A DNA stretch of 52,688 nt from Alphaproteobacteria bacterium (lineage in GTDB: Bacteria > Pseudomonadota > Alphaproteobacteria > Micropepsales > Micropepsaceae). Positions 951 to 52,173 of the stretch are shown in pieces (position 1 is the first letter of the stretch; each line of letters opens with the position of its first letter). The stretch is taken from positions 1 to 52,688 of the forward strand of contig CANJLC010000014.1 in the NCBI GenBank assembly GCA_947475445.1, read 5' to 3'. The notes under the pieces are model-generated. The model made no database searches, was not told the DNA's origin, and was given only the letters and a program-made list of their open reading frames with translations. The translations under genes and the position numbers were made by a program.

Positions 951-2558
951 ATGAAGCGTCGCGTGTTTGTTGCAGCAATAACGATCGCCGCCGCCTTCGC
1001 AGCCACCAGTGCAGCGATGGCCCAGATGGCGCTTGGCCCCAACCCGAAGGTTGAACGGACTTATGGTCTTGGCCTTCCGCGCGACATGGACAAGATCATC
1101 CCGCCGGATTCCGATTATCCCGTCTATCCGCTCAAGCCCGGCCAGGAAGCCTATGCGGATGTCGATGGCTATCACCTCAAAGATATCATCAAGCAGATCA
1201 CGGCCATCTCGCTGAAGAGCCTGAATGCCGGTGAGCAGTTCTGGGGCCGCGTCCTGGGCTCCAAGTACCATCTCGAATCCACTGAATTCATGGCCAAGGA
1301 ATGGGAAAAGCTGGGCCTGAAGGTTCAGCGCATCGACTACGTCAATCCCGAGGTCTGGTACCCGCGCAAGTGGGAAGGCAATTACACCTCCGGCGCCCAC
1401 ACGGCGCCGTTGCTGACGCTCTATCCCAACAATGAGACCGTGGGCACCAAGGCTGGCGGCATCACCGCCGACGCCGTGTGGCTGGGCATCGGCACGCCTG
1501 CCGACCTGGTGGGCCGCGACATCAAGGGCAAGATCGCCATCATCTATAGCGTCCTGCTGCCGGGCGGCCGTTCGCAATCCGCTGGCGTCTGGGGCGGCAA
1601 TGCCGCCGCCGTCAAGGCCGGCGCCGCCGCAATCATCAACGTTGTCGGCGTGCCCGGCAACGGCCAGTTCGATCCGGAAGGCGCACCCAGCGGAGCGGAC
1701 GCCATTCCCAACATGACCCTGTCTCAGGATGAAGGCTTCATGCTGCGCGACCGGATCGCGGCAGGCGAGAAGATCCAGATCCATCTGGACCTGACCATCG
1801 ACCACCTCAAGGACTACAAGGCCCAGTACATCATGGCGACGCTGCCGGGCATGTCCGACGAAGAAGTCTGGGTCATGGCCCATAGCGACTCCATGTTCCA
1901 GGGCGCGATGGACAATGCCTCCGGCATGGCCACCGCCATCGACATCGCCCGCCACTATGCGGCGATGCCCAAGGAACAGCGTCCGCGCACCATGACCTTC
2001 TTCGTGGACCCGGACCATCACAATACCGAACTGGCCCGCGACCAGATGAAGGTGAAGTATGACTGGAGCAAGGTCGCATTCATCGTGAACGCCGAACACA
2101 CCTCGCAGGCGCAGCTCTTCATGCTGAACGACGATCTGCAGATCGGCAATGCGATCAACGCGCGTCGCTGGTTCGTCAGCGGCAGCCCGGACTTCCAGCA
2201 GCTGGTGAAGAACGAGCTGAAGGACTTCAACGTCTCGGTCTACACCGTGCCGGAAACCAATGCCGGCGGTTCGCTGGGCGGGCTGACAAAATACGCCCCG
2301 TCAATGCACATCATTGACCACATCATCTACCATACGACTCTGGATACGCCGGAACTGGTTCCCGCGGTGGGCCTCGCCTACACGGAACGCGCGTTCCTCT
2401 CCATCATCGACAAGGGCAACAAGATGACGCTGGCCCAGATCCGCGGCACCGCGCCTCTGCCCAACGCTCTGGGCGGTCCGCCCGATGGCAAGACCTTCGG
2501 CAGCCGTGGCCGGGGCCCGGCCACCGGCGGGCGCGCAGCTGGCGGCAATGGCCCGTAA
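951..2558 (+). CDS. Secreted PA-domain/M28-like protein (copy 1) with His-His active-site variant
   Basis: 535 aa. Signal peptide of about 24 residues ending in AMA-Q, a PA-like segment near 140-270 (GRDIKGKIAIIYS), an M28 fold near 295-490, then a Gly/Arg/Pro-rich tail. Relative to glutamate carboxypeptidase II (PA plus M28), metal positions are H311 and D321 with the family's 10-residue spacing, E382 (NAEH) in place of Asp, and H461 (IYHTTLDTPE). Catalytic and ligand Glu-Glu are replaced by H356-H357 in DPDHH. Family knowledge predicts a dizinc exopeptidase; the missing general base makes catalysis uncertain. The start follows GGGGG 5 nt upstream. Receptor gene downstream on the same strand. 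Closest paralogue here is the gene starting at 50629. Confidence 0.85.
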   Translation: MKRRVFVAAITIAAAFAATSAAMAQMALGPNPKVERTYGLGLPRDMDKIIPPDSDYPVYPLKPGQEAYADVDGYHLKDIIKQITAISLKSLNAGEQFWGRVLGSKYHLESTEFMAKEWEKLGLKVQRIDYVNPEVWYPRKWEGNYTSGAHTAPLLTLYPNNETVGTKAGGITADAVWLGIGTPADLVGRDIKGKIAIIYSVLLPGGRSQSAGVWGGNAAAVKAGAAAIINVVGVPGNGQFDPEGAPSGADAIPNMTLSQDEGFMLRDRIAAGEKIQIHLDLTIDHLKDYKAQYIMATLPGMSDEEVWVMAHSDSMFQGAMDNASGMATAIDIARHYAAMPKEQRPRTMTFFVDPDHHNTELARDQMKVKYDWSKVAFIVNAEHTSQAQLFMLNDDLQIGNAINARRWFVSGSPDFQQLVKNELKDFNVSVYTVPETNAGGSLGGLTKYAPSMHIIDHIIYHTTLDTPELVPAVGLAYTERAFLSIIDKGNKMTLAQIRGTAPLPNALGGPPDGKTFGSRGRGPATGGRAAGGNGP

Positions 2559-2692
2559 GCTGATCTGACATCCAGCCGGTCGGGCAATCAGGCCTGACCG
2601 GTCGGGCTAGGTAACGAATACAAAAAGCGCGGATGGAAATCCGCATAGACAGACAAACGACATAACAAACGACAATAGAAGAGGGACAAGAC

Positions 2693-5623
2693 ATGCAGAC
2701 CAAGTCAGCCAACGGAAATTCCAATCAGCCGAGCGTGAAAAGCCGCGCTCTGGCCAGGACCAGCCTGCTCGCCTTGACGGCGACGCTTTTGACGGGCGCT
2801 GCAAATGCCCAGCCGGCCGGCGACGGCGGACTTGCCGTGGAACAGGTCGTTGTGACCGGCTCGCTGATTGCGCGTAGCGGCTACACCGCTCCCACCCCGG
2901 TGACCACGGTCAGCACCAAGGAACTGTTGGCCGCCGCCCCGGCGAACGTCGCCGACTATGTCAACCAGCTTCCCGCCTTGTCGGGCAGCGCCACGCCCAC
3001 CAGCAGCACCAAGGGCGTCTCGAGCGGCACCGCCGGCCAGAATACCCTGAACCTGCGCAACCTGGGCGCCAACCGCACTCTGGTGCTGTTCGACGGCCAG
3101 CGTTCGGTCGCTTCCAACGTCAACGGCGTGGCCGACGTCAACAACTTCCCGCAGGCCCTGATCGCCCGCGTTGAAGTGGTGACCGGCGGCGCCTCCGCCA
3201 CCTATGGCTCGGACGCCGTGGCCGGCGTCGTGAACTTCATTCTCGACAAGAATTATGTGGGCCTCAAAGGCAGTGCCTCCAAGAGCCAGACCACCTACGG
3301 CGACGACAAGTCCTGGACCGCTGACTTGACCTTTGGAACGGCCTTTTCGGGCGGCCGCGGCCATTTCCTGGTTGCGGGCGATGCTGGCCATACCGATGGC
3401 TTTGTCAGCCTGAAGAACGGAGAGAACAAGGGCGGCCGCGCCTGGGCGAACCAGGGCTGGAAGATCGTCAACAATCCCACCTACACCGCCACCAACGGCC
3501 AGCCGCGTCAGCTGGTTGTGAACAATGTCGGTATTGCATTGGGCACCTATGGCGGCCTGATCGTCTCGGGTCCGCTCAAGGGCACTTCCTTTGGCCCGGG
3601 CGGCACGCCGGTGAAGTTCAACTATGGCACGGTCACCGGCAGCTACATGATTGGCGGCGACTGGAAGTCCACCGATACCGCGCAAAACAATTCGCTGGAT
3701 TCCCAGCTGGAGCGCCAGAGCGCTTTCACCCGCCTCAGCTATGACATCAACGACCACATCAATGTCTATGGCCAGGCGTCGTATGCCTATTCCTACCAGC
3801 TGAGCATCAACTCGTTTGAAACCCAGTTTGGCGGCCTGTTCATCAATCCGGCGACCAACCCCTTTGTGCCGGCCTCCACCAAGGCCCAGGCTGCCGCGCT
3901 GAAGCTGACCCAGATCGAAATGGGCACCATGAACGGCGACCTGCAGCCCTATTCGGCAGGCCCCAATAGCCGCTCGGTTTATCGCTATGTCGCCGGCGCC
4001 AGCGGTGATTTCGGCCTGTTCGACACCACCTGGAACTGGGATTTCTACATGCAGGACGGTACCTCGCATGTGAACAGCACCGCCATCGCCAGCCGCAAGT
4101 CGCGTTATACCCAGGCGATCCAGGCTGTCGTCTCGCCGACCACCGGGCAGGCCATCTGCTCGTCCACGCTGACCAATCCCAATGACGGTTGCGTGCCCTA
4201 CAACATCTTCGGCACCGGGGTGAACAGCCAGGCCGCCATCAATTACGTCGAAGGCGCGGCGCACCAGGACGCGGTCTACTTCCAGGATGTGGCTGCCGTG
4301 AATTTCCGCGGTGATCCCTTCTCCATCTGGGCCGGACCGGTTTCCGTGGCCTTTGGCGTTTCGCATCGTCGCGATGCCGTCAACGGTACATCGACCGCCG
4401 CGGACATGGCGCTGGACTTCTTTGCCGGCAACTATGTTCCCGTTATCGGCAGTGTCACGGTGGACGAAGGGTATTTCGAAACCATCGTTCCGGTGTTGAA
4501 CAACATGCCGCTGGTGCAGGACCTCAGCGTCGATATGGCTTGGCGCGCGACCAACTACAGCGTCTCCGGTTATGTCAACACCTGGAAAGTCAGCGTCAGC
4601 TACACGCCGGTTGATGACATCCGAGTTCGCGCCACCCTGTCGCGTGACATTCGCGCCCCGAACCTGGGCGAGTTCTTCACGGCGGGCAGCACTTCCACCT
4701 CGTCCTACACCGATCCGTTCATGAGCCCGGCGCTGACCTACACGGCGTTTACCCTCAGCACGGGCAATCTCAACCTGGTACCGGAAAAGGCGCAGTCGAC
4801 CAATGTCGGCATCGTCTGGCAGCCGTCCAGCTTCCTGCCCGGGTTCAATGCCTCGATTGACTATTGGCGCGTCGCCATCGGTCAGGCCGTCGGCTCGGCC
4901 TCCAGCGGCACCGGCAAGGGCCAGAACATCATCGACCAGTGCTTCGCCGGCCAGACCCAGTATTGCTCGGCCATCATCCGCGGCGGTCCGGTCCAGAACG
5001 GCCAAAGCAAGATCCTGTTTGTGAATGGCGGCAATTTCAATCTGGCGTCGCAAGTGGCGGATGGCATCGATATCGCCATGAACTACACCACGCCGGTGGA
5101 CAATATCTTTGCGGGCGTCCCCGGCGACGTGTCGCTGCGTGCGCTGGCCACGGGTACGTTCAAGGACAGGACCAACAGCGGCATCCCGGGCACCCCTGCC
5201 CGCAACACGGCTGGCACCAATTCCGGCTCCGGCCCGGCCCATTGGCGCTTCCTGACGAGCATTGACTACACCCTCGACCCCATCACCTTCACCTTGACGG
5301 GACGTGGCCTCAGCGCCGGCAAGTATGACAACTCGTTCATTGAATGCACGACGGGCTGCCCCACTTCCACGGCTACCAATATCACCCAGGACAACAACAG
5401 GATCGATGGCGCCTTCTACCTCGATACCAACTTTGTCTATGACTTCGATGTTGGTAACGCGGGCATGTCGGCCTATTTCAACGTGAAGAATATCTTCAAC
5501 CTGGATCCGCCGCTGGTTGCGGGTGGCCCGAGCGGCACCACCTTCACCACAGCCGGCGAAAATGCGACCCTTTACGATACTTTGGGCCGCGTCTTCCGCA
5601 TCGGTCTGCGGTTCAAGCTGTAA
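2693..5623 (+). CDS. TonB-dependent outer-membrane receptor
   Basis: 976 aa. Positively charged N-terminus and signal peptide cleaved after about residue 39 (AANA-Q). A TonB-box-like EQVVVTG lies near residues 49-56, followed by a plug domain (LRNLGANRTLVLFDG, GGASATYGSDAVAGV) and a long beta-barrel ending in RIGLRFKL with terminal hydrophobic residue. It imports an unknown ligand across the outer membrane using TonB/ExbBD energy. It lies 134 bp after one M28-like gene and just before another, suggesting that ligand and periplasmic enzymes are linked, for example peptide- or amide-containing substrates. The leader contains a direct repeat (CCGGTCGGGC twice near 2576-2608) and a small hairpin but no clear terminator. 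The receptor class is secure; its substrate is unknown. Confidence 0.92.
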   Translation: MQTKSANGNSNQPSVKSRALARTSLLALTATLLTGAANAQPAGDGGLAVEQVVVTGSLIARSGYTAPTPVTTVSTKELLAAAPANVADYVNQLPALSGSATPTSSTKGVSSGTAGQNTLNLRNLGANRTLVLFDGQRSVASNVNGVADVNNFPQALIARVEVVTGGASATYGSDAVAGVVNFILDKNYVGLKGSASKSQTTYGDDKSWTADLTFGTAFSGGRGHFLVAGDAGHTDGFVSLKNGENKGGRAWANQGWKIVNNPTYTATNGQPRQLVVNNVGIALGTYGGLIVSGPLKGTSFGPGGTPVKFNYGTVTGSYMIGGDWKSTDTAQNNSLDSQLERQSAFTRLSYDINDHINVYGQASYAYSYQLSINSFETQFGGLFINPATNPFVPASTKAQAAALKLTQIEMGTMNGDLQPYSAGPNSRSVYRYVAGASGDFGLFDTTWNWDFYMQDGTSHVNSTAIASRKSRYTQAIQAVVSPTTGQAICSSTLTNPNDGCVPYNIFGTGVNSQAAINYVEGAAHQDAVYFQDVAAVNFRGDPFSIWAGPVSVAFGVSHRRDAVNGTSTAADMALDFFAGNYVPVIGSVTVDEGYFETIVPVLNNMPLVQDLSVDMAWRATNYSVSGYVNTWKVSVSYTPVDDIRVRATLSRDIRAPNLGEFFTAGSTSTSSYTDPFMSPALTYTAFTLSTGNLNLVPEKAQSTNVGIVWQPSSFLPGFNASIDYWRVAIGQAVGSASSGTGKGQNIIDQCFAGQTQYCSAIIRGGPVQNGQSKILFVNGGNFNLASQVADGIDIAMNYTTPVDNIFAGVPGDVSLRALATGTFKDRTNSGIPGTPARNTAGTNSGSGPAHWRFLTSIDYTLDPITFTLTGRGLSAGKYDNSFIECTTGCPTSTATNITQDNNRIDGAFYLDTNFVYDFDVGNAGMSAYFNVKNIFNLDPPLVAGGPSGTTFTTAGENATLYDTLGRVFRIGLRFKL

Positions 5624-5751: not shown

Positions 5752-7335
5752 ATGACACCGGGAAAATCCAAACTGTCTTATCGCCTGGGCGCCCTGGCGC
5801 TGGCTTTTGCCGCGCCGTTCGCCTTCATGGGCATATCGATCGCGCAGGAAGGCGGCGACGGCCCGGTGCGGGGCCCCAAAGGGACCGTCGCCACCATCAC
5901 CTCCCCCGAACTGGTCTGGCAGCTGCCGGCCAATGTCGACAAATCCTATGACATGATCGACGGGGCGCGGATGATGACCTACGTCAAGGAGCAGGCGGCC
6001 ATTTCCCTCAAGTCCCGCGACCAGGGCAACAAATGGTGGGGCCGCATCGCCGGCCAACCCTCGGGCGACGAGATGCAAGCCTGGGTGACCGCCAAGCTCA
6101 AGGGCGTCGGCCTCGATGTCTCGACCACGATTATTCCCATGCCTACGCAAGAAATTCCCAAGGACTGGGACGTGACCGTTTCCGCGGGCGGCAAGTCTTT
6201 CAAGCTGGAAAGCGCTTTCCCGAGCATCGATTTCACCAGTGCCATGCCTGGCAACAAGGGTGACGAGAATCTGGATGCGGTCTGGGTCGGCCTGGGTCAG
6301 GCGATCGATTTCGACGGCAAGGATGTGCGCGGCAAGGCGGTCTTCATCTATTCCATCCCCACGCCCAGCACCCTGGTGCAATCGGCGGACTGGATGGGCG
6401 CTGTCGCCCGGGCGCAAAAAGCCGGCGCCAAGGCGGTTGTCGTCGGGATCGCGATTCCCGGTAACATGAAATATCTCAGTCACGGGATAACGGGCGACCG
6501 GAAGCTGAACGTGAAGATCCCGATCTACTCCATCGGCAATGATGATGTCATGAAGGTGGCGGACATGGCCCATGAGGGCCTGACCAAGAATGATTTCAAG
6601 GCCCATGTCAGCTGGGACGTTGATGTCAGCGACGGCCACAAGGAAGGCGTCGTTATCGGTAAGCTTGCGGGCATGACCGACGAGAAGATCGTCATGATCG
6701 CCCATACCGACGGCTTTTTCGAAGGCGCCACCGATGACGGTGCTGGCGTCGCGGCCTTCATCGAAACCGCCAATTATTTCGCCAAACTGCCGAAGGAAAA
6801 GCGGCGCAGGACCATGTACTTCCTTGCCTTGCCCGACCATCACGAAGGCAATGCGGGCGGCGCCTGGCTGCACAACAACATGAAATCCCTGTTCCCCAAC
6901 ACGGCCCTGCTCATGAATGCGGAGCATATCGCCGCCAAGGCGCCGGTCTATGATCGTGCCTGGGGCAAGGGCGGGGCGCCCTCGCTGATCGCAACCAACG
7001 GCAACGGGCCGTCCTGGTGGGGCGTCTATGGCAGCGACCGTCTGGCCAATATCGTGCGCGACGGCTATGCCACCTTCGGCGTGCCTACCCAGTTGGCGGA
7101 AGGCGGCTCGCCCGGTGAACTGTCCTCGGTGCAGTTCGATGCTCCCAGCTTCTACCTGCACAACAAGGGCGTCTATTATCACGCCGATGCCGATACGCCG
7201 GATGTGGTGCCGGTGGACGGCATGCGCAACGCCGTGCAGGCCATCGCCAAGATTTTCAACGACGTCAATCAGGTCGATTTGAAGGACCTGCAGGCGCCGA
7301 CAGACCGCTTGGCCAAGACAGCCTCGGCGCAATAA
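5752..7335 (+). CDS. Secreted PA-domain/M28-like protein (copy 2) with His-His active-site variant
   Basis: 527 aa from ATG 5752, chosen because GAGG (5742-5745) sits 6 nt upstream; a GTG at 5707 would overlap the preceding terminator. Signal peptide ends near SIA-Q. A PA-like part (DGKDVRGKAVFIYS) precedes the M28-like domain. Metal positions are H318 (AHTDGFF), D328, E in NAEH, and His in YYHADADTPDVV. The Glu-Glu pair is again His-His (LPDHH, 363-364). Divergent from copy 1, so the family is an old paralogous set and not a recent duplication. Predicted periplasmic, metal-binding; hydrolase activity is not assured because the usual base is absent. Confidence 0.85.
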   Translation: MTPGKSKLSYRLGALALAFAAPFAFMGISIAQEGGDGPVRGPKGTVATITSPELVWQLPANVDKSYDMIDGARMMTYVKEQAAISLKSRDQGNKWWGRIAGQPSGDEMQAWVTAKLKGVGLDVSTTIIPMPTQEIPKDWDVTVSAGGKSFKLESAFPSIDFTSAMPGNKGDENLDAVWVGLGQAIDFDGKDVRGKAVFIYSIPTPSTLVQSADWMGAVARAQKAGAKAVVVGIAIPGNMKYLSHGITGDRKLNVKIPIYSIGNDDVMKVADMAHEGLTKNDFKAHVSWDVDVSDGHKEGVVIGKLAGMTDEKIVMIAHTDGFFEGATDDGAGVAAFIETANYFAKLPKEKRRRTMYFLALPDHHEGNAGGAWLHNNMKSLFPNTALLMNAEHIAAKAPVYDRAWGKGGAPSLIATNGNGPSWWGVYGSDRLANIVRDGYATFGVPTQLAEGGSPGELSSVQFDAPSFYLHNKGVYYHADADTPDVVPVDGMRNAVQAIAKIFNDVNQVDLKDLQAPTDRLAKTASAQ

Positions 7336-8142: not shown

Positions 8143-9759
8143 ATGAAGCGGAAATTTGGAGGCCTAATGGCAGCGCTGGCCGGTGCCGCGCTTGTGATGG
8201 GCAGTATGAGCGCGATGAGCGTGGAGTGGGAAGCGGGCAAGGGCCCCATTACCATGCCCACCGTCCCCAGCAGCATTCCTGGCCGCGTCATCCCGCCCGG
8301 CACGCCTCCCGGCGGCAACATCAAGGGCGCCAACCTGCAGTCCTACCAGGACGGCCTGCTCGAATTTCCGGCTCCCACGGGCGCGGACGCCAAGTACGCC
8401 GCCATCAACGGCCACAAGGTCCATGAATACGTCACGGCCTTCACCAACTTCGCCAGGAAGTATCGTGACAATGGCCATCCCCAGTTCTGGGGCCGCCTGA
8501 TCGGCTCGCAGGCCGATACCGATTCCGCCAATTACACGCTTGAAAAGTTCAAGTCCTTTAACCTGACGGACGCGCACATCCAGCCGTTCGACCTGGTGCC
8601 GCAATGGTATCCGCAAGGCTGGACCGTGACCGCCACAGGTTCTGACGGTGCCATCGTCAATCTGGAGACAGCGCAGCCCGCCTATCAGACGCCCGACACC
8701 AAGGGACAGAACCTGACGGCAGAAGCCGCCTGGGTCGGCACTGGCTCCGAAGCCGATTATGTCGGCAGGGACGTCAGGGGCAAGATCGTGTTCATCTACA
8801 GCACGCCATGGCCAGGTTCCTGGCGCCAGCAGGCCACCGCGGAAGACGCGCTGCGCCGCGCGGAAGCCAAGGGTGCCGCCGGCATCGTTTCGGTCATCGC
8901 CCTGCCGGGCAATGTCCGCATGGCGCTCTATCCCACTAGCACCAACGTCCCGACTTTCTCCATGGGCCTGATTGACGGCTATAAGGTGCGTGACCTGATC
9001 GGCGCCGGCAAGGCGCCCAAGGTTACCATCAACATGGCCGTCAAGATGGAAGAAGGCATGAAGACCAGCATGGTCTGGGGCACCCTGCCGGGCGTCACGG
9101 ACGAGAAGGTCATCATCATTGCCCATCGCGACGGCTGGTATGAATCCGGCACCGATAACGCTTCGGGCGCCGGCGCCCTGATCGGCCTGGCGGAGTATTT
9201 CTCCAAGGTTCCCAAGGCCCAGCGCAAGCGCACCATCGTCTTCATCAGCACCACCGGTCATCACAATGGCGGCAATGTCGGCGGCACCTATATCCTGCAG
9301 CATCGTGACAAGCTGTTCGACAAGGGCGCGCTGTTCATCAACCTGGAGCATGTCGCCACGGGCCAGACATATGAATTGGGCGAAGACATCCGCTTCGGCA
9401 ATCGTTCGACCAGCATGCTGTGGTATGCGGGCGGCCCGCGCCGTCCCAAGCTGCAGGACATCGCCGTCAAGGCCTTCCATGAGATGGGCGTCTCCATCTA
9501 TGAATCGCCGGAAAATGCGGCTCCTGGCGGCGAAATGAGCGGCATCTGGCCGTACATCGCCGGCGTCCAGGCGTCCGACTACAACATGTTCTTCCACTCC
9601 GATCATGAAACGGCCGAGACCGTTCCGTGGACCGGTTTGCAGGAAATCTCCCGCGCCTATGCCAAGATCATCGACGAGACGGGCAAGTTGCCCCTATCTG
9701 ATCTGCAGCGTCCCGACGAACCGCCGGGCGGCGTGCCGGCTCCGATTGCCAAGGACTAG
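8143..9759 (+). CDS. Secreted PA-domain/M28-like protein (copy 3) with His-His active-site variant
   Basis: 538 aa from ATG 8143, preceded by GGGAG at 8131-8135 with 7-nt spacing; an in-frame ATG at 8137 is too close to that site. Signal peptide MKRKFGGLMAALAGAAL... ends near SAM-S. A Gly/Pro-rich linker follows, then PA-like sequence (GRDVRGKIVFIYS) and an M28-like domain: H328 (AHRDGWY), D338, His-His 373-374 in TTGHH, Glu in NLEH, His in FFHSDHETAE. The acidic Glu-Glu motif is absent, as in its three paralogues. Operator-like copy B lies upstream, linking it to the mmsA operon. Function as a periplasmic peptidase or amidase is inferred from fold only. Confidence 0.85.
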   Translation: MKRKFGGLMAALAGAALVMGSMSAMSVEWEAGKGPITMPTVPSSIPGRVIPPGTPPGGNIKGANLQSYQDGLLEFPAPTGADAKYAAINGHKVHEYVTAFTNFARKYRDNGHPQFWGRLIGSQADTDSANYTLEKFKSFNLTDAHIQPFDLVPQWYPQGWTVTATGSDGAIVNLETAQPAYQTPDTKGQNLTAEAAWVGTGSEADYVGRDVRGKIVFIYSTPWPGSWRQQATAEDALRRAEAKGAAGIVSVIALPGNVRMALYPTSTNVPTFSMGLIDGYKVRDLIGAGKAPKVTINMAVKMEEGMKTSMVWGTLPGVTDEKVIIIAHRDGWYESGTDNASGAGALIGLAEYFSKVPKAQRKRTIVFISTTGHHNGGNVGGTYILQHRDKLFDKGALFINLEHVATGQTYELGEDIRFGNRSTSMLWYAGGPRRPKLQDIAVKAFHEMGVSIYESPENAAPGGEMSGIWPYIAGVQASDYNMFFHSDHETAETVPWTGLQEISRAYAKIIDETGKLPLSDLQRPDEPPGGVPAPIAKD

Positions 9760-13745: not shown

Positions 13746-15266
13746 ATGAACATCATCGACCAATCCAACAAGCAGCGCACGGTCAATAATTTCATTTCTG
13801 GCCGCGTTGTTGCCAGCACGAGCGGACGCTCGCAGGATATCTTCAATCCCGCGACCGGACGTGCGAGCGGCAAGGTCGCCCTGTCGTCGGCTGCCGAAGT
13901 CGGCGCTGCTGTTGCCGCCGCCAAGGCGGCGTTCCCGGCCTGGTCGAGCATGCCCCCCATCCGCCGCGCGCGCCTGATGAACAAGCTGCTGGAGCTGGTG
14001 AACACCCACAAGGATGACCTTGCCCGGGCCATCACCAGCGAGCATGGCAAGGTTTTCTCTGACGCCCGCGGCGAAGTGGATCGCGCCATCGACGTGATCG
14101 AATTTTCCTGCGGCATCCCGCAGCTGCTGAAGGGCGATTACACCGAACAGGTGTCCACCGACATCGACAACTGGACGCTGCGCCAGCCCCTCGGCGTCGT
14201 CGCCGGTATCACGCCGTTCAACTTTCCCGTGATGGTGCCGGCCTGGATGTACCCGGTCGCCATCGCTGCCGGTAACACCTTTGTGCTCAAGCCCAGCCCG
14301 CTGGATCCCAGCCCCTCGATCATGATCGCCGAACTGATGCGCGAAGCCGGCTTCCCGGATGGCGTATTCAACGTGGTGCAGGGCGACAAGGAATCGGTCG
14401 ATGCGCTGCTCGCCCATCCCGATGTCCAGGCTGTCTCCTTCGTCGGCTCGACGCCGATCGCCAATTACGTTTATGAAACCGGCGCGCATCACGGCAAGCG
14501 CGTCCAGGCCCTGGGCGGCGCCAAGAACCACCTGGTGGTGATGCCCGATGCCGATATCGAAAAGGCCGTCGACGCCCTTATCGGCGCCGCTTATGGCTCG
14601 GCCGGCGAACGCTGCATGGCGATTTCCGTCGCCGTGCTGGTTGGCAATGCCGCCGAACCCGTCATCTCGCGCCTGACGGAACGCGCCAAGACCCTCAAGA
14701 TCGGCGACGGCATCGACAATGCCAGCGAAATGGGTCCCATCGTGACCTCGGCCGCCCGCCAGCGCATCACTGGCTGCATCGACAAAGGCGTGGCCGAAGG
14801 CGCCAAGCTGGTCGTGGACGGCCGCAGCCATGTCGTGAAGGGCAATGAAGACGGTTTCTTCCTGGGCGCCACCTTGTTCGACAACGTCAAGCCGAACATG
14901 TCGATCTACAAGGAAGAGGTCTTCGGGCCGGTCCTGGCCTGCGTGCGCGTCGCCACTTTTGAGGAAGCGCTGAAGCTGATCAACGACCATGAATTCGGCA
15001 ATGGCGTCAGCCTCTTTACCGCGGACGGCCATACCGCCCGCGAATTTGGCCGCCGCGTCCAGGTCGGCATGGTCGGCATCAATGTGCCGATCCCGGTTCC
15101 CATGGCCTGGCACGGCTTTGGCGGCTGGAAAAAGAGCCTGTTTGGCGATATGCATGCTTATGGTGAAGAAGGTGTACGCTTCTACACCAAGCAGAAGTCC
15201 ATTATGCAGCGTTGGCCTGAAAGCATTGGCAAGGGCGCCGAGTTCGCCATGCCGGTTGCCCGCTAA
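13746..15266 (+). CDS. mmsA: CoA-acylating methylmalonate-/malonate-semialdehyde dehydrogenase
   Basis: 506 aa, full length for the family. Converts methylmalonate semialdehyde to propionyl-CoA, or malonate semialdehyde to acetyl-CoA, with NAD+ and CoA and loss of CO2. Seen: the ALDH Rossmann region ([12 protein letters not shown]), VSFVGST NAD-loop, LGGAKNH, and the catalytic Cys at about 290 in GSAGERCMA, the Cys-Met context typical of MmsA/IolA. First gene of a tightly spaced operon with a CoA transferase (30 bp), crotonase (30 bp) and Fe-alcohol dehydrogenase (52 bp). In DMSP-degrading bacteria the DddC protein is the same family and makes acetyl-CoA from malonate semialdehyde. Valine catabolism is the alternative role. 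Confidence 0.93.
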
Positions 15267-15296
15267 AAAGCGAGGTCAGGAACACCGGAGGACGTC

Positions 15297-16571: not shown

Positions 16572-16601
16572 TTTTTGTAACAAAGTACGGAGGAATTTGT
16601 C

Positions 16602-17435: not shown

Positions 17436-17487
17436 GCGCGTTGCCGGACTGCACAATCGCTAATTTCATTTTCGAAGAGGTATCATC

Positions 17488-22655: not shown

Positions 22656-22830
22656 GTCAGCTACTCCCCTAAACGGCCCCTTCGAGAGCCAAGCGATGAA
22701 TGCGATGGGTTGCTTGAGCGAAAGGCTCCCGGCAACGTTTTCCCGACCCTGATAGGCGCCCGCCATTGGCGGCTTCGCTCATTTGTTGGCGCAAGGTTCG
22801 CACAACCCCAAGTCCGGGCAATGACCATCC

Positions 22831-22911
22831 ATGCGCAATCGATGTGCAAATTTGATCATCGGGGGTGCATTGCTGCACCACAATAAACATCAGGTATCTC
22901 AACCTATTATA
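22831..22911 (-). promoter_or_regulatory. Promoter region of CapA-like copy 2 with operator copy E
   Basis: On the minus strand TTGCACATCGATTGCGCAT (22849-22831) is the shared element with one mismatch in the right arm. Next to it is GGTGCA-TTGC-TGCACC (22864-22879), a perfect 6-bp inverted repeat. A consensus TATAAT reads on the minus strand at 22911-22906; no good -35 is found 17 bp upstream. If this is the start site, both repeats lie downstream of it, as for a repressor or roadblock. Confidence 0.4.
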
Positions 22912-22960
22912 GCTGTGCAACTGCAACACGCGGCGCTTCGCCGCCCAGTTCTGGAAAGCG

Positions 22961-24031: not shown

Positions 24032-24044
24032 GGTTTTTTCCAGG

Positions 24045-44211: not shown

Positions 44212-44219
44212 GGGGGCTC

Positions 44220-45083
44220 CTATTTGCCGTTGGCGCCGCGAACGGCAAATTGCGCCGTCAAGGGCGGCATGCCCTGGAACGACAATGTGACGGGAACCGA
44301 GGCGCCGCGCCTCAGAACAGGCCTTGGGTCCATGCACATCAGGTGATAACCGCCCGGTGCGAAACTGAGGCTGCCGCCTGCCGGCACATCAACCTGTTTG
44401 ACATCCTGCATGCTGCTCATGCCGCCCTTGTCATCGGATTTGTGCAGCATCAGGCCGCCACAGGCCGGCGAGTCCGCGCCGGTCAGCGTCACTTTTGTCG
44501 CGCCGTGATTTTGCAGGGTGAAATATCCTCCCGCCGGCGTGCTGCCCGGCAACAAGCGTATCCAGCCGTCGCTGAGCGTGAGCGTGGTGTTTGGCGCCGC
44601 GGCGGGTGCGGCCGGTGTCGCTTGGGTGGCGGAAACCGTCAGCACCGGCGCCGGCTTGTCCAGGTGATGGCCATCGGCGGCGGGCAGCTCCGACCAGTTC
44701 TCGCTGCCTTTCTCGCAGGCCTGGAACACCGGGAAAGCGAGCGTCGCGGCCTTGCGCGGCAGGTTCATGGTCATGACGAATTCGCCCTTGGCATCGGACG
44801 CAAGCTTGCCGCCTTTCCAGGTGATGGCGCTGATGCGCCCGCCCGCCCGCACGGTGGCGATGCTCCAGCCCTCTGCTGCCTTGGCCTGGACGTTGGAAAC
44901 GTCCCGCGGAAGCGCGACGCTGATGGCGGTGGTGGGCGAGCCGCTGCAGCCATGGCCGACATGGAAGTGCGCCACATATTGCGCGCCGGGAAGCGCCGTG
45001 GGTTCGCCAAGCGTGACATGGGCGAAGGCGGCGCCGGATGTCAGTGACATCAGGGTGAAAGCCAAGAGGAATTTATTGCGCAT
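44220..45083 (-). CDS. Fused YcnI (DUF1775) and PCuAC copper-binding periplasmic protein
   Basis: 287 aa from ATG 45083. Signal peptide ends at AFA-H, making His the first mature residue, as in YcnI where the N-terminal His binds Cu(II). The DUF1775 domain runs to about residue 150 (HVGHGCSGSPTTAISVALP). After an Ala/Pro linker, a PCu(A)C domain follows with its metal motif: GLMLHKSDDKGGM, then GGYHLMCMDP (His-x-Met). PCuAC chaperones deliver copper to cytochrome oxidase or Cu enzymes. Overlaps the receptor gene by 11 bp. Both domains are usually separate genes; the fusion is known in some proteobacteria. Confidence 0.9.
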   Translation of the reverse strand: MRNKFLLAFTLMSLTSGAAFAHVTLGEPTALPGAQYVAHFHVGHGCSGSPTTAISVALPRDVSNVQAKAAEGWSIATVRAGGRISAITWKGGKLASDAKGEFVMTMNLPRKAATLAFPVFQACEKGSENWSELPAADGHHLDKPAPVLTVSATQATPAAPAAAPNTTLTLSDGWIRLLPGSTPAGGYFTLQNHGATKVTLTGADSPACGGLMLHKSDDKGGMSSMQDVKQVDVPAGGSLSFAPGGYHLMCMDPRPVLRRGASVPVTLSFQGMPPLTAQFAVRGANGK

Positions 45084-47367
45084 AGTGGATCTCCAGCACG
45101 GCGGTATGTTGCGGAAAGGGGTGGAACAGGAAATATTTGTCATTGTTGAGATTGTCCATCCCCGCCGAGATTCTCCAATTTTCATCGAGCTTGTAGCGGA
45201 TACGTGCGTCCAGCACAAAATATCCGGCAAACCCCTGGTAGGTCTGCGAAACAGGATCGGAATTGTCGATTGTGCCGAAGCTGCGGTCGCTGTAACGCGC
45301 GCCAAGAGTGAAGGACCAGGCGGAATCGGGCCGCCAGGTCGCCACCGCGTTGGCCCGCCATTTGGGAATCTGCGGCGCGAACTTGTTCACCGCCGCAGGG
45401 AAGACCGGGTCCCTGACGATGCGGCCATCGGCATAGGTGATGCTTCCCATCAGTTCCAGGCCCGGTAACATCACGTCATATTGGTCGGCCACCAGCTCGA
45501 CGCCGCGCACCCGCACATGGTCCACATTCTGCACATAGGAGAACAGGGCGGTGGAGCCCGTGACCAGCGGCGCTGATTGCGAGATCAGGGCGTTGAAGAC
45601 GTCCTGCTGGAACAGCGAGGCGCGGAACAAGCTGCCTTCGTTGCGATGCTCCGCCGCCAGTTCGTAATCATTGCTGCGCTCCGGCTTCAGGTTGGGATTT
45701 GGCACGCTGAGCGTCGCGCCGGTGGTGACCGACTGGTAGAGTTCCGTCACCGTCGGCATGCGGTAAGCCTGGCCGAAGGACGCCGTCAGCTTCCAGTCTT
45801 CGCTGGCCTGCCAGGCCGCCGTGGCCTTGGGTGAGAAGGCCTGCGCCGCACTGCGCGGCTGGTTCACGTTCAGCGCCGGAGAGGCGGAGTAATTGTTGCC
45901 GTCATGGGCCCGCCAATCCTCATAGCGTGCGCCCAGCGCCAGTTTCACCGCCGGTGTGATGGTCACGAGATCCTGGGCCCAGATGGCGTTGGTGGCGGTG
46001 CGTCCCCTGGCCGAGTTCACCACCGTGCCCAGCCCGCCCGCGATCCAGTCGGCGAGGTTGTTGCGAACCTGCGAGAAAGTCTCGGCATCGCGATGCAGGC
46101 CGAAAGAGACTTCGTGATCGGCCCAGCCGCGCCACAGGCCAGTGGCGTCATAGGTCATCCAGCCCGTGCCATTGACGCGGTTGACCGTACCCGCGCCACC
46201 TGTAATGGCGGCGGGAAGCGCCGCGGTCGGCACGCGCTGTTTGTCAGTCAAATAGTCGAAACGGCTGACGATCAGTTCCCAGGCAAAATCACTGTCCCCC
46301 GCCGATTTCAGCGACAGGCCCTGCGCCAGCTTGCTCTGCTGGGTATTGTAGAGATTGTTGGAAAAGGTGCTGGCGGCGATGTTGTAGTTGTAGCCGTTGA
46401 TATTGCTGTTGCCGGTGTAGACCTCGACGCCCGCGGCATTGCGCAAGTAAGTTTCGACGCCTGAATCATCATCCTGGTGGAACAGGCTGGCCATGTAGCC
46501 GAGCGTCGCGCCGCCGAAATCATACGCCAGCTTGAGCGAGACTGTATCCTGCACCTGGCTCTCGATGCCGGTGGCGCCGATTTCCACGATGGCTGCGCCG
46601 GTGCGGTTCAGGTCATTGAAGGCTCCGGTCAGTGGGGTGCCCGCCGTGCTGGCCGAAGCGGGCCGCGCCAGGGTGGCGTAGCCCAGCGGCTGGCCGGTGG
46701 AATCAAGGTGATTGGCCGAAAGCCGCCAGGAGAAATTACCGATCCGGTCGCCGATTCCGGCCGCGACCTGCCAGGTGCCTACCGTCATGGCGCTGGCATA
46801 TTGGGAAAAGTCCTGCACCGCGCCGGTGGCATCGGCATAAAGCTCGAAGCTGTCCGGCATGCGGGTGGTGATGTTGATGGTCGCGCCCATGGAATTGCCG
46901 GCGGATCGCGCCGCAAAAGGTCCAAAAAGCACGTCGATCCGGCTTATGTCGTGCGGCGCGGCGACGCCGAAATTGGGCGAAGCCGTGGTGTTGTTGTTGC
47001 CGATGGGCGCGGAAACCATGATGCCATCCACGAAGATGAGGTTGCGGGCCGAAGCGCCGACGCCGGAGGTGCGGGTGGCGACCGGGTCCTGGGTGTCGCC
47101 GAAATGGCGTTTGCGCACCACCAGGGACGGCGCGTATTTCAGCATATCCTCGGTGTTGACGGTGTTGATCTGTTCCTGCGCCTTGGTGGCGCTGACCGCA
47201 ATGTCGGTGGCGGCGGGATCGTCAGAAGCACGGGTGCCGTTGACGATGACATATTCTGGCGCAAGCCCCGCGCCGATATTTTGGGCAAAAGCGGGCGAGG
47301 CGGACAGAAGAATTGCCGAAAGAATCGTGAAGGATGCGCAGGCGCGCAGACGTGAACGCAAGGACAT
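45073..47367 (-). CDS. TonB-dependent receptor in a copper-type operon
   Basis: 764 aa. Signal peptide ends near AFA-Q (about 29). TonB-box-like EYVIVNG is followed by a plug domain (TEDMLKYAPSLVVRKR, ARNLIFVDGIM, ISRIDVLFGPFAARSAGNSMGATINI) and beta-barrel through the C-terminus, which ends at VLEIHYAQ with no C-terminal Phe. Genes of this type sit next to DUF2946 and YcnI/PCuAC proteins and are associated with copper; copper or a Cu-chelate is the best inferred ligand. Start has GGAGAG 4 nt upstream. It lies 59 bp downstream of the DUF2946 gene. Confidence 0.92.
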   Translation of the reverse strand: MSLRSRLRACASFTILSAILLSASPAFAQNIGAGLAPEYVIVNGTRASDDPAATDIAVSATKAQEQINTVNTEDMLKYAPSLVVRKRHFGDTQDPVATRTSGVGASARNLIFVDGIMVSAPIGNNNTTASPNFGVAAPHDISRIDVLFGPFAARSAGNSMGATINITTRMPDSFELYADATGAVQDFSQYASAMTVGTWQVAAGIGDRIGNFSWRLSANHLDSTGQPLGYATLARPASASTAGTPLTGAFNDLNRTGAAIVEIGATGIESQVQDTVSLKLAYDFGGATLGYMASLFHQDDDSGVETYLRNAAGVEVYTGNSNINGYNYNIAASTFSNNLYNTQQSKLAQGLSLKSAGDSDFAWELIVSRFDYLTDKQRVPTAALPAAITGGAGTVNRVNGTGWMTYDATGLWRGWADHEVSFGLHRDAETFSQVRNNLADWIAGGLGTVVNSARGRTATNAIWAQDLVTITPAVKLALGARYEDWRAHDGNNYSASPALNVNQPRSAAQAFSPKATAAWQASEDWKLTASFGQAYRMPTVTELYQSVTTGATLSVPNPNLKPERSNDYELAAEHRNEGSLFRASLFQQDVFNALISQSAPLVTGSTALFSYVQNVDHVRVRGVELVADQYDVMLPGLELMGSITYADGRIVRDPVFPAAVNKFAPQIPKWRANAVATWRPDSAWSFTLGARYSDRSFGTIDNSDPVSQTYQGFAGYFVLDARIRYKLDENWRISAGMDNLNNDKYFLFHPFPQHTAVLEIHYAQ

Positions 47368-48242: not shown

Positions 48243-48373
48243 TGCTGTTTTTCACTGGGTTGCATGTGGCTGCTTTACGCTTTTTCCGCCATTTGGCATC
48301 AGCGGCAAGAAATAATAGCCTGAGTGCGTGACCGGCCATGCGGTATCGCTGACCGGGCCAAAAGGTGGGGGCA

Positions 48374-50443
48374 ATGGACGCATCAGAGGAAGAAAGTCCC
48401 GCGCGTGATGCGTGGCGCTTTCTGGCGCCGGCGACGATCTTCCTTGCCGCACTCCTGCTTTTTGAGGTGGAGCCGCTGATTGCCAAGGCCATCCTGCCCT
48501 GGTTCGGCGGTTCGGCGGCGGTTTGGATGGCCTGCCTGTTGTTTTTCCAGGCGGCGCTGCTGGCGGGATATCTCTATGCCCATCTGCTGGCGAGATATTG
48601 CTCCCCTGTCTGGCAGACACGCCTACATATCGGCCTGCTTATTGTCAGCCTGTCGTTTCTTCCCATCCTGCCCTCCGCCGGCTGGAAACCAGCGGGCAGC
48701 GAAGATCCTCTGCTGCTGATCCTGGGGCTGCTTGCAGGCACCGTCGGCCTTCCGTTCCTGCTGTTGTCTTCGGCCACGCCGCTGGTGACGGCTTGGAAAT
48801 TACGCGCACCGCAGTCTGGGCCCTCATATTCCCTCTACCGGCTCTATGCGCTGTCCAACCTGGGTTCGATGCTGGCGCTGCTCAGCTATCCGGTCCTGAT
48901 CGAGCCCTTAATTCCCTTGCGGCTACAAGGCGTTATCTGGTCCAGCCTTTATGCGGGCTTTGCCCTGCTCAGCATCATAACGGCCTGGTATTACCGCCAC
49001 CCGGCTGCGGATTTGCCGGCCGCCCAGGCAGAGCAGGAGGATGCACGGCCTTCCATCGTGGACCGGCTGTTCTGGTTTTTCCTGCCGTTGGCGGCGTCGG
49101 CGCTCCTGCTGGCTGTTACCAATCATATCCTGCGCAATATCGCCGCCATACCGCTGCTCTGGGTGGCGCCGCTGGCGCTTTACCTGCTCAGTTTTGTCAT
49201 CTGCTTCGATTCCCCCCGCTGGTATGTGCGGGCCATCTGGTATCCGCTTTTCGCGCTGATGGCGGGCGCCATGATCTATGTCATGGTGGGCGTGTTCCTG
49301 ATCCAGCATTTCGGAGGCTTGCTGGCGTTTTACGCCGTCGGTTTATATGTGTGCTGCATCGTTTGCCACGGCGAACTGGCGGCCCTGAAACCATCGCCGC
49401 GCTATCTCACTTCCTATTACCTCTGCATCGCGGCGGGCGGCGCCTGCGGCGGCATTTTCGTAGCCGCGATTGCGCCCTCCTTTTTCAATTCCGACATCGA
49501 TCTTGCGCTGATACTTCCTGCCACGGCGCTGCTGGTCCTGCGCGCAGCCTGGCGGCGACTGCCAAGGGCTTCGGATTCGGTCTGGGCCATGCTGGCGCTT
49601 GCCGTTCTCCTGGTCGGCTGGGTGGTCGATACTGGCCGCATGGCGCGTAAGGTCAAAGTTGATATCCAAGATGCGAAATTCCTCGAGCGCAATTTCTATG
49701 GCGCGCTGCGCGTCATCGATGGAGGCCCGATCCGCTTGCTGCGCAACGGCAATATCATCCATGGCCGCGAATTCCTGTCGCCGCAGCGGGCAACAGAGGC
49801 CACCAGCTATTACAGCCCCAAATCGGGGCTGGGGCTGGCGGTGGCGCAGTTGCAGGCCCGCGGCCCCATTCATGTCGGTATTGTGGGCCTGGGCATCGGC
49901 ACCATCGCCGCCTATGGCCGCACCGGCGATGCCTACCGCTTCTATGAAATCAATCCGGCGGTGCCCGACATCGCACGGCATTATTTTCGCTATCTGGAAT
50001 TGTGCAAGGCGGCGTGGCGCATCGTGATGGGAGACGCGCGGCTTTCGCTGGAGCGCGAGCCGCCGCAGAAATTCGACCTGCTGGCGGTGGATGCCTTCAC
50101 CAGCGATTCCATTCCCATGCACCTGCTGACCCGCGAAAGCTTTGCGCTTTACTGGCGGCACCTGAAGCCGGACGGCGTCCTGGCGGTGCATATTTCCAAT
50201 CTTTATATCGACCTGGGCCCGGTGGTGGCGGCCGCCGCGCTGGCGGATGGCAAGATGGCGCGCGCGGTGGAAAATCCCGAGGATCTGAAAAACGGCGTGG
50301 ACATGTCGAACTGGATTCTGATCACCGCCGACAAGCGGTTTTTCGACAGTCCCGCGCTGAAGGGGGCCCGCCCGATTGCGGTGCCCGCATCTTTCCGCGC
50401 CTGGACTGACGATTACAGCAATCTGTGGCTGTCGCTGCGCTGA
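48374..50443 (+). CDS. Membrane-fused spermidine-synthase-like protein
   Basis: 689 aa from ATG 48374 (GGTGGGG just upstream). About 12 hydrophobic helices in the first 430 residues (FLAPATIFLAALLLFEVEPLIAKAILPWFGG and on) are followed by a cytoplasmic or periplasmic spermidine-synthase-type Rossmann domain (about 450-689): GLGLAVAQL, HVGIVGLGIGTIAAYG, FYEINPAVPDIA, FDLLAVDAFTSDSIPMHLLT, LKPDGVLAVHISN. These fused membrane proteins (MFS-like/SpeE-like) have no proven substrate; the SAM-binding-like fold suggests aminopropyl or methyl transfer. Monocistronic between the leader RNA region and the fourth M28-like gene. Confidence 0.85.
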   Translation: MDASEEESPARDAWRFLAPATIFLAALLLFEVEPLIAKAILPWFGGSAAVWMACLLFFQAALLAGYLYAHLLARYCSPVWQTRLHIGLLIVSLSFLPILPSAGWKPAGSEDPLLLILGLLAGTVGLPFLLLSSATPLVTAWKLRAPQSGPSYSLYRLYALSNLGSMLALLSYPVLIEPLIPLRLQGVIWSSLYAGFALLSIITAWYYRHPAADLPAAQAEQEDARPSIVDRLFWFFLPLAASALLLAVTNHILRNIAAIPLLWVAPLALYLLSFVICFDSPRWYVRAIWYPLFALMAGAMIYVMVGVFLIQHFGGLLAFYAVGLYVCCIVCHGELAALKPSPRYLTSYYLCIAAGGACGGIFVAAIAPSFFNSDIDLALILPATALLVLRAAWRRLPRASDSVWAMLALAVLLVGWVVDTGRMARKVKVDIQDAKFLERNFYGALRVIDGGPIRLLRNGNIIHGREFLSPQRATEATSYYSPKSGLGLAVAQLQARGPIHVGIVGLGIGTIAAYGRTGDAYRFYEINPAVPDIARHYFRYLELCKAAWRIVMGDARLSLEREPPQKFDLLAVDAFTSDSIPMHLLTRESFALYWRHLKPDGVLAVHISNLYIDLGPVVAAAALADGKMARAVENPEDLKNGVDMSNWILITADKRFFDSPALKGARPIAVPASFRAWTDDYSNLWLSLR

Positions 50444-50628
50444 ATCCCGGCATTTCAATCCATGGCGTTTGCCCAATGGCGCAAGCGGGCTTTCGTGGCA
50501 CCGGAATGACCAGCCTGTCATTTGCCTGTCATTTTGCCTGTGCGAAGGCGCGGCGAGGGCTTTGCGGCTGGATGCGTCTCGCATATGCTCACGAGCAAAC
50601 ACAAATATATAAGAGAGGGTATTCGACC

Positions 50629-52173
50629 ATGAAATTCAACCGCAAGACGCTGGGCCTTGGCCTGGGCGTCCTGGCAATGTCCGTCACCGCCGCCATGGCG
50701 CAGATGGACAATGGCCCCGCCACCGAAAAGAAATACGGCATCGGGCTGCCGCGCGATCACGCCACCACCATTTTCACCGACGCGCAATATCCCAAATTCG
50801 CGCTTCGCCCCGACCAGCAGCAATATGCCGACATTGACGGCGCGCGCATGAAGAAGGACATCTTCGCCCTTGCCGCTGTCTCGCTGAAATACCGCGCCGA
50901 AGGCCATCCGCAATGGTGGGGACGCTTCCCCGGCACCACGGCGGATGTCGAAGGCGTCAAATATGCCCTGGATGTATTCAAGAGCCTTGGCATGAAGACC
51001 GAGTCCGTGCCCTTCACCCTGCCTGAGGACTGGCGCCCCGTTTCCTGGGATGCCAGCTATCAGTCCGGCGGCAAGACCATCAACCTGACCACTGCCTTCC
51101 CTGTTTCAGGCACCAAGGGCACCGGTCCGGAAGGCGTCACCGCCGAAGCCATCTGGGTGGGCATCGGCTCCAACGCCGATTTCATTGGCCGCGACGTCAA
51201 GGGCAAGGCCGTGGTGATCTATTCCATCTTCGTGCCGGGCGGGCGTTCGCACTCGGCTTCCGACCGCGCCAACCTTTTCAACGCCAACAAGCAGGCCGTT
51301 GAAAAAGGCGCCGCCATGGTCATCAACGTCATGTCGGTGCCCGGCAACGGCCAGTATCAGCCGGAAGGCGGACTGGAAGAAGTCACCCAGCTGACCCTCA
51401 GCCAGGATGAAGGTTTCGCCCTGCGCGACCGCCTTGCCGCCGGCGAGAAGATCAACATCACGGCGCATTTGAATGCGCCGCCGCTGAAGGACGTCAAGAC
51501 CGCCTATCACTGGGCTTACCTGCCCGGTAAGTCGGACGAGCAGATCATGATCCAGATGCACACGGACGGCTATTTCCAGGCGGCGGAAGACAATGCCAGC
51601 GGCATGGCTTCAGGCCTGGAGCTGGCCCGCCATTACGCCAAGCTGCCGATCGATCAGCGCCCGCGCAGCATGGTGTTCCTGATGTTCCCGGACCATCATC
51701 ATGGCGAGTTCGCGCATCGCAAGCTGATCGATCCCACCTATGCCTGGGACAAGGTGGCGCTGAAGATCACGCTGGAGCATCCCTCCGAGACGCAGCTGAT
51801 CATGTACAATGAAGACCTGACGCCCTCCAACCAGCTCAGCGCCACGCGCTGGAACGCCCTGGGCAGCCCGGAATTCGAAACCATGGCGCTGCAGCAGCTG
51901 GCCGACTTCGGCGACAGCGTCTATGGCGTGGAAGACGGACCCAAGAACGGCCCCTATGCGCCGTCCTTCCACATCATCAATCACATCATCTATCACACCA
52001 GCCTGGACACGCCCGATCTGGTGCCGGCCGAAGGCATGGCGCGCTCCACCCGCGCCTATGCCTCGATCATCGACCATGCCAACAAGATGACCATTCCCCA
52101 ACTGAAAGGCCCGGGCTGGCCCTATGACAAGGACCAGGGCTCGATCCACGGCTCGATCATTCCCGCGAAATAA
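50629..52173 (+). CDS. Secreted PA-domain/M28-like protein (copy 4) with His-His active-site variant
   Basis: 514 aa from ATG 50629, with AGAGAGGG about 9 nt upstream. Signal peptide ends AMA-Q. Closest to copy 1 (951-2558): shared KYGIGLPRDH/TYGLGLPRDM start, PA-like GRDVKGKAVVIYS, and PGNGQ-QPEG. Metal positions: H311 (MHTDGYF), D321, His-His 356-357 (FPDHHH), Glu in TLEH, His in IYHTSLDTPDLV. Like its paralogues it lacks the M28 Glu-Glu pair. Separated from the other three by 40 kb and lying next to an IS3-family element. Likely periplasmic and metal-binding; activity unproven. Confidence 0.85.
   Translation: MKFNRKTLGLGLGVLAMSVTAAMAQMDNGPATEKKYGIGLPRDHATTIFTDAQYPKFALRPDQQQYADIDGARMKKDIFALAAVSLKYRAEGHPQWWGRFPGTTADVEGVKYALDVFKSLGMKTESVPFTLPEDWRPVSWDASYQSGGKTINLTTAFPVSGTKGTGPEGVTAEAIWVGIGSNADFIGRDVKGKAVVIYSIFVPGGRSHSASDRANLFNANKQAVEKGAAMVINVMSVPGNGQYQPEGGLEEVTQLTLSQDEGFALRDRLAAGEKINITAHLNAPPLKDVKTAYHWAYLPGKSDEQIMIQMHTDGYFQAAEDNASGMASGLELARHYAKLPIDQRPRSMVFLMFPDHHHGEFAHRKLIDPTYAWDKVALKITLEHPSETQLIMYNEDLTPSNQLSATRWNALGSPEFETMALQQLADFGDSVYGVEDGPKNGPYAPSFHIINHIIYHTSLDTPDLVPAEGMARSTRAYASIIDHANKMTIPQLKGPGWPYDKDQGSIHGSIIPAK

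Follow-up and report, generated by a model that had tools for sequence, protein, structure and literature searches.

M28 proteins are the textbook two-zinc hydrolases, and the catalytic Glu is taken as the mark of their activity. The M28 aminopeptidases with a PA-like insert, such as Bacillus subtilis YwaD (6hc6), the Aneurinibacillus aminopeptidase (2ek8) and the Shewanella M28 protein (3iib), possess a Glu-Glu pair and an Asp ligand, whereas the proteins described here, termed the HH family, contain His-His at the former and Glu followed by His at the latter position. Glutamate carboxypeptidase II (GCPII/PSMA), which has an extra C-terminal domain, carries a Glu pair formed by E424 and its neighbor. 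In the transferrin receptor the active site is not kept. For the aminopeptidase of Aeromonas/Vibrio proteolytica a variant, E151H, was made by design, in which the first Glu alone is changed and the ligands E152 and D179 remain Glu and Asp. The HH family, which shares with this mutant the His at the general-base position, has changed more; the PDB title of the mutant structure (2anp) calls it functional.

The DUF4910 protein CA_C2195 has an M28-like fold with an altered site and was proposed to be a non-peptidase; it binds a single Zn through two His and one Asp and has an additional wHTH domain (PMC4000134). An M28-like fold with an altered site is thus common to CA_C2195 and the HH family. 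Copy 4 of the HH proteins matches DUF4910 (PF16254) best, at 20.8 bits, which is below the cut-off of 26.6. An earlier note on this DNA had allowed that the HH form might be a well-characterised M28 subfamily; no described HH M28 subfamily was found in the open-licence literature.

Four M28-like proteins and their altered site

The window, i.e., the whole stretch of 52,688 nucleotides that was analyzed, encodes four of the seven HH paralogues of the genome; these four are real open reading frames (ORFs) on the forward strand. Copy 1 (P0001, 535 amino acids, 951..2558) starts with an N-terminus resembling a Sec signal; its HH pair, H356 and H357 (2016..2021), lies in the shared columns in which HH aligns on Glu-Glu, and it is followed by E382-H383 (2094..2099) and by the final His, H461 (2331..2333), in an invariant alignment column. 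In copy 2 (P0002, 527 amino acids, 5752..7335) the corresponding residues are H363 and H364 (6838..6843), E391-H392 (6922..6927) and H477 (7180..7182). Copy 3 (P0003, 538 amino acids, 8143..9759), which serves as numbering reference for the site residues, contains H373 and H374 (9259..9264), E402-H403 (9346..9351) and H485 (9595..9597). Finally, copy 4 (P0004, 514 amino acids, 50629..52173), which is 48-49% identical to copy 1, carries H356 and H357 (51694..51699), E383-H384 (51775..51780) and H456 (51994..51996). All four proteins are likely secreted. A canonical M28 copy (L008) is encoded elsewhere in the same genome.

The proteins can be assigned to the M28 alpha/beta fold and all score above the curated cut-off of 21.3 bits for Pfam PF04389 (M28), with 37.7, 41.2, 46.3 and 26.3 bits for copies 1-4; NCBIfam gave no match approaching its cut-offs. 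Each of the four contains a His, an Asp at +2, a second Asp at +10 and the HH pair 35 and 36 residues past the second Asp, in the contexts DPDHH, LPDHH, TTGHH and FPDHH (copies 1-4), then Glu-His in the contexts NAEH, NAEH, NLEH and TLEH, and the later His is kept in all four. The pattern that had been claimed from the letters is therefore present in every copy. The equality of its spacing with GCPII holds in part: the distance of ten residues from His to Asp is identical, but the Glu pair of GCPII lies 37 and 38 residues past the Asp, two further along than HH.

The placement of HH on the canonical Glu-Glu pair was confirmed by alignments that do not depend on this spacing, and it was obtained with hhalign, with MAFFT and with hmmsearch against the PDB. 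The Glu of the xEH motif aligns with the canonical Asp ligand and the other metal ligands follow in unchanged order; no Glu-Glu pair was found elsewhere in the proteins in these alignments. Furthermore, a profile of the HH family scored the engineered E151H aminopeptidase 6.8 bits above the wild type, the position of HH on 2anp being deduced from this score. Compared with canonical M28 enzymes, the catalytic Glu and the adjoining metal-1 Glu ligand are both His, and the metal-2 Asp ligand is Glu, in all four copies as well as in every near relative (best 120 of 661); at the last position the canonical proteins have Asp in 51 of 53 rows and Glu in two. The first His, the bridging Asp and the final His are present in all copies and in 120, 119 and 119 of these 120 relatives, respectively.

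Conservation and phylogeny of the HH family

The near relatives were taken as the best 120 of 661 by overall similarity, the motif not being used in their selection. HH together with EH occurs in all 120 and the complete set of eight site residues in 118, the exceptions being one Ala at the second Asp and one Arg in the column of the final His. As these relatives are mutually similar, with 105 invariant columns, conservation of the site among the best 120 of 661 is unremarkable and the distant loci constitute the stronger test. HH is present in 35 of 35 distant family loci that reach the site, out of 37 loci (L017-L053) picked by tblastn and not by motif. Among the 55 tblastn loci, 33 show the full pattern and two more contain HH without the complete pattern (L034, which ends early, and L035, in which it is altered); another two, L048 and L050, stop short of the site, and the remaining 18 are matches of a different kind. 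In 29 loci from other genomes, for which as a rule at most five candidates per genome were scored and of which L123 and L130 were not read by the pattern, no HH was found.

Sorting into the classes HH, HE, EE and HF was based on the residues at positions 373-374 (for HF, on EH as well), which renders counts at these positions within a class uninformative, and the HH class includes 39 locus rows that had been selected by motif pattern; counts free of this choice are those from the lists of protein relatives, including the best 120 of 661, and from L017-L053. The HH relatives span several bacterial phyla and the group is known mostly from metagenomes, although Microbulbifer sp. NKW57 (L025) is a carrier in culture. 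Single losses occur: in L035, H328 is replaced by Pro and E402 by Ala with HH retained, in P0057 the bridging Asp is an Ala, and the HH protein P0193 shows Gln in the column of the final His, suggesting that some members may be inactive or that the link to metal 1 is not strict. The conservation of HH in near and distant relatives suggests that the metal site has been rebuilt and that the proteins probably function as enzymes.

For the unrooted trees 65 of 378 rows were kept, leaving out six rows classed as 'other', rows less than 60% filled and near-copies; the careful tree was built without L008. With the motif columns removed, HH forms a single clade (support 100/99), which rules out four independent changes to HH. 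The earlier note had taken the coordinated change in divergent copies as a sign of selection, an argument that falls away as the copies inherited one ancestral change and cannot be counted as separate events; what does hold as an argument is the conservation over long periods.

The HH clade groups with two further classes, GHE and GHF/xEH (HF), with a support of 98/95. The GHE class (L054:7896-9560, P0196 and relatives) is mainly archaeal and shows only the exchange of the catalytic Glu for His; it keeps the Glu and Asp metal ligands, the Asp being followed by Gly in 85 of 86 cases, and contains neither HH nor EH. The GHF/xEH class (L054:6441-7853, P0125 and relatives; by names from archaea, Myroides, Clostridium and Vicinamibacterales) shares H373 and E402-H403, and in it the second His is Phe, Met or Tyr, the bridging Asp is Glu or Gln and the final His is lost, so that by its residues metal 1 is probably gone. 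That the second His disappears along with the final His and the bridging Asp supports its role as a ligand of metal 1. The pairing of GHE with HF received a support of 84/41, and constraining HH and HF together was not rejected (p-AU 0.48). One GHE protein, L076, which is encoded in another genome of the class, has a long branch and lies outside the group; its placement inside was not rejected either (p-AU 0.40). Probably, the change from catalytic Glu to His came first, at the base of the wider clade, and the changes of the metal site followed.

Predicted mechanism, gene neighborhood and alternative readings

In the preferred reading, to which we assign a probability of roughly 60%, the products of the four genes belong to a family with the M28 fold and are predicted to be secreted hydrolases with two metals; the first His of the pair would likely serve as general base and the second would likely coordinate a metal. 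Based on the alignment and in copy 3 numbering, the ligands of metal 1 would be H374, H485 and the bridging D338, and those of metal 2 H328, D338 and E402. H373 would replace the catalytic Glu, i.e., E424 of GCPII or E151 of the Aeromonas enzyme, and D330 and H403 would be second-shell residues. With one Glu ligand exchanged for His and the carboxylate base for imidazole, the site would have about two fewer negative charges than the canonical one. At the cell surface the enzymes may act on small molecules or peptides by hydrolyzing an amide or ester bond, the substrate class being a guess, and the products might be imported via the TonB receptors encoded nearby.

Two such receptors are encoded in the window, one between copies 1 and 2 (2693..5623, forward strand; Pfam Plug 63.9 and barrel 58.0 bits) and a second one about 3.3 kb from copy 4 (45073..47367, reverse strand; Pfam barrel 189.1 bits). 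In the wider set the TonB receptor link is weak: Pfam analysis of 118 neighbors yielded six TonB barrels, five TonB plugs and at most two of any other family. All-against-all clustering of the neighbors revealed no widely shared partner beyond the HH gene, the next largest cluster being aldehyde-dehydrogenase-like with six sets, three of them from SAR86.

More tentatively, and held to be rather doubtful, the family may belong to a deep M28 branch of Asgard archaea and several bacterial phyla, in which the catalytic Glu was replaced by His once and the metal site was then either rebuilt with His (HH/EH, a 2-His-1-carboxylate metal-1 site with non-zinc metals possible) or stripped to one metal (GHF/EH). 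HH would then be the natural evolved counterpart of E151H and could perform chemistry beyond that of Glu-based M28 enzymes. A point against the preferred reading is that H373 and EH persist in the GHF class, which lacks the metal-1 ligands, so that these residues may serve something other than two-metal hydrolysis. The new chemistry proposed in the earlier note was not borne out: the 2anp title describes as functional an ordinary M28 aminopeptidase in which His replaces the catalytic Glu, and the simpler explanation is hydrolysis of the usual kind in a rebuilt site.

It is unlikely that the HH site binds metal without hydrolysis, as in a binding or transport protein, e.g., a surface metal- or ligand-binding M28-like pseudoenzyme working with the adjoining TonB receptor. 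The site, although replaced, is conserved in near and distant relatives, unlike that of the transferrin receptor, and a His at the base position is unnecessary for binding two metals, yet it is found in the HH, GHE and GHF classes.

Quite unlikely is a different chemistry on the M28 fold, such as elimination or oxidation with Fe or another redox metal at metal 1. The 2-His-1-carboxylate arrangement is the motif of non-haem iron enzymes, and the predicted metal-1 set of two His and one Asp resembles it. A tannase-like and a carboxymuconolactone-decarboxylase-like gene lie beside the C13 copy and an HH gene fragment in L017 adjoins a tannase gene; these neighbors hint at aromatic compounds, in one paralogue group only. 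However, as the E151H mutant is called functional, new chemistry is not required, and the neighborhoods lack a widely conserved partner gene.

That these are decaying M28 peptidases that lost their catalytic pair is rejected as very improbable: the canonical copy in the genome would make a loss tolerable and L035, P0057 and P0193 have lost single site residues, but random loss would not converge on identical residues, HH and EH are kept across phyla in one clade, and dN/dS is 0.19-0.22 (NG86, three pairs), so that this part of the earlier note, that the sites are not decaying, stands on conservation in distant relatives and on purifying selection. An incorrect alignment with the true Glu-Glu pair elsewhere, to which the two-residue offset from GCPII and the 12-20% identity to solved M28 structures might point, is rejected as hardly conceivable given the agreement of the three alignment procedures, the order of the ligands and the score of the E151H mutant.

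Implications for the M28 family

The few HH proteins with source names among the best 120 of 661 relatives are called 'M28 family peptidase', 'Peptidase family M28' or 'hypothetical protein'. These names give no hint of an altered base and two altered ligands, and activity, metal and substrate are not transferable from canonical M28 enzymes to the HH group. With a conserved natural lineage carrying a His as the base, with GHE as a possible intermediate and with GHF as a side branch that probably binds one metal, the stepwise change of base and ligands in a metal-hydrolase site becomes directly testable.

Four HH copies and the position of the His pair

Open reading frames were confirmed on the forward strand for all four M28-like proteins of the window (copy 1, 951-2558; copy 2, 5752-7335; copy 3, 8143-9759; copy 4, 50629-52173), and all four carry the His-His pair (HH) and the xEH motif that the earlier note had reported for them. 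Each matches Pfam M28 above the cut-off and has a predicted fold of the M28 type, and each starts with a hydrophobic stretch that, judged by sequence alone, resembles a secretion signal, suggesting that the proteins are secreted. The site in copy 3, which serves as numbering reference, consists of H328, D330, D338, H373, H374, E402, H403 and H485, with identical order in copies 1, 2 and 4. A 692-residue ORF without Pfam match lies directly upstream of copy 4 (48365-50443).

Alignment of a profile of 69 HH proteins with one of 19 canonical M28 proteins by hhalign (E 1.3e-38) placed HH on the canonical Glu-Glu pair (EE) and the Glu of xEH on the canonical Asp; the columns of a MAFFT alignment of 378 proteins agree with this placement of HH, and in a search of PDB sequences the HH profile matched its His pair to the paired glutamates of 3iib and 6hc6. 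The earlier observation of both substitutions stands and its interpretation holds in part. The claimed exact spacing of glutamate carboxypeptidase II (GCPII) does not hold, as HH lies 35/36 residues past the Asp and the GCPII Glu pair 37/38, counted on the alignment.

The catalytic Glu is E424 in GCPII and E151 in Aeromonas aminopeptidase. With mutant identities taken from PDB entry titles, the HH profile scored the E151H mutant 2anp at 27.1 bits and wild-type 1amp at 20.3 bits over the same stretch, while D118N gained 2.1 bits and M180A and S228A gained nothing. The gain of E151H is consistent with a His column of the profile falling on E151. The entry title of 2anp terms this mutant functional, and GCPII entry titles label E424A an inactive mutant. 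Going by its title as cited in PMC3426542 and PMC4320195, Bzymek 2005 is the paper on E151H.

Site classes and the predicted metal site

Two further classes have His at the catalytic Glu, GHE with His at this residue only and GHF (or HF) with His followed by Phe, Met or Tyr together with xEH. Searches of open-licence papers listed no account of an M28 class with HH, GHE or GHF. GHE was found in L054:7896-9560 and P0196-P0279; those of its rows that carry a name, a minority, are Asgard archaea, and many of the proteins contain PKD-type domains (PF18911/PF00801). GHF, which retains the His without the predicted metal-1 ligands, comprises L054:6441-7853 and P0125-P0192 (66 rows), by record names from archaea, Myroides, Clostridium and Vicinamibacterales; in L054 the genes of both classes adjoin. 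M28-like proteins with further altered sites are encoded in Clostridia and Dehalococcoidia MAGs (L068:7797-9842, L070:8025-9986), where H-x-D is aligned with H-x-S/T and the second Asp with Asn.

As the classes were set by positions 373-374, and HF by EH too, only the remaining positions are informative. GHE differs from the canonical site only at the catalytic Glu, with Asp at 402 and the bridging Asp in all 86 rows and the final His in 85 (one gap). The 167 HH rows have the bridging Asp in 166, the final His in 165 and the first His in 166. All 66 HF rows keep the first His and D330; their bridging column holds Glu (36) or Gln (30), and none of the 65 rows with a letter in the final column has His there. 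A list of 71 relatives not picked by motif contains 66 rows with HF, HM or HY, none of which has the bridging Asp or the final His; its two EE rows have both, and its one HH row has the bridging Asp and Gln in the final column. Residue 374, the bridging Asp and the final His thus change together, as would be expected if they formed metal site 1, and the proposed metal assignment draws chiefly on this co-variation for its support from sequence. H373 and E402-H403 lie in the part common to HH and HF.

The HH protein is predicted to be a secreted two-metal hydrolase, in which an imidazole would serve as the general base, with H374 binding metal 1 and E402 metal 2. Directly after the metal-2 Asp, 21 of 53 canonical rows have Met; in Aeromonas aminopeptidase this position is M180, a second-shell residue, and H403 occupies it in HH proteins.

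Origin, spread and conservation of HH

In an unrooted tree of 64 proteins, calculated without the eight motif columns, HH forms one side of a branch with support of 100/99, as does GHF (100/99). HH, GHF and three GHE rows form one group (98/95) separate from the EE rows, and a quick tree of 65 rows agrees. The change of the catalytic Glu to His therefore probably occurred once, prior to the origin of HH; more than one branching order of the three classes is compatible with the tree. L076, a GHE protein from another genome of the taxonomic class, lies outside the group on a long branch, its inclusion not being rejected (p-AU 0.40).

In the window's genome HH occurs in seven paralogues spread over four contigs, alongside a canonical EE M28 protein (L008). 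Among relatives HH is patchy: 19 of 61 genomes searched have a match at E 1e-3, strong matches being confined to the window's genome, G009, G014 and G025, and the loci taken from the latter three carry HH. Of 190 genomes sampled from the taxonomic class, 2 match at E 1e-30, one of them the genome of the window. By record title, HH loci come from Alpha-, Beta- and Gammaproteobacteria, SAR86, Microbulbifer, Acidobacteria, Gemmatimonadetes and Verrucomicrobia.

HH and EH are present in all 120 near relatives listed of 661 matches, and 118 of the 120 have the full set of eight site residues. As these sequences are much alike (105 invariant columns), a better conservation test comes from the more distant loci L017-L053 (tblastn, 26-82% identity): the site was reached in 35 of 37, all 35 having HH and 33 the entire pattern. 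NG86 dN/dS for three orthologue pairs was 0.218, 0.194 and 0.193. Exceptions are Ala at D338 in P0057, Gln (P0193) or Arg (one of the 120 listed) in the final His column, and L035, with Pro at H328 and Ala at E402, possibly an inactive offshoot; this Acidobacteriales HH protein (L035:7764-9380) retains HH, H403 and the final His.

Genes around the HH copies

TonB receptor genes lie between copies 1 and 2 (2693-5623) and 3.3 kb from copy 4 (45073-47367). The window also contains a catabolic run on the forward strand (13746-18651; aldehyde dehydrogenase, CoA-transferase family III, enoyl-CoA hydratase, iron alcohol dehydrogenase) and, on the reverse strand, a HupE/UreJ gene between two PGA_cap (capsule synthesis-type) genes (21186-25382). 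The C28 HH copy is flanked by a TonB barrel gene and, on its other side, by a gene with a marginal plug match (24.3 bits, cut-off 23.9). The genome has 22 TonB matches, with 8.4% of it within 5 kb of one, and three of five independent HH places lie within this distance (P ~0.005 in a test picked post hoc). In other genomes, a TonB gene adjoins the HH gene in L017, L025, L041 and L052; the one in L017 (8004-11384) appears as two ORFs in the record. The C13 HH copy adjoins genes on the opposite strand for a DUF6351 tannase-like and a carboxymuconolactone decarboxylase domain protein (L133:10232-13646). At the edge of L017, a fragment of an HH gene sits next to a tannase gene. The neighbouring genes may point to import of breakdown products, possibly those of aromatic esters or amides.
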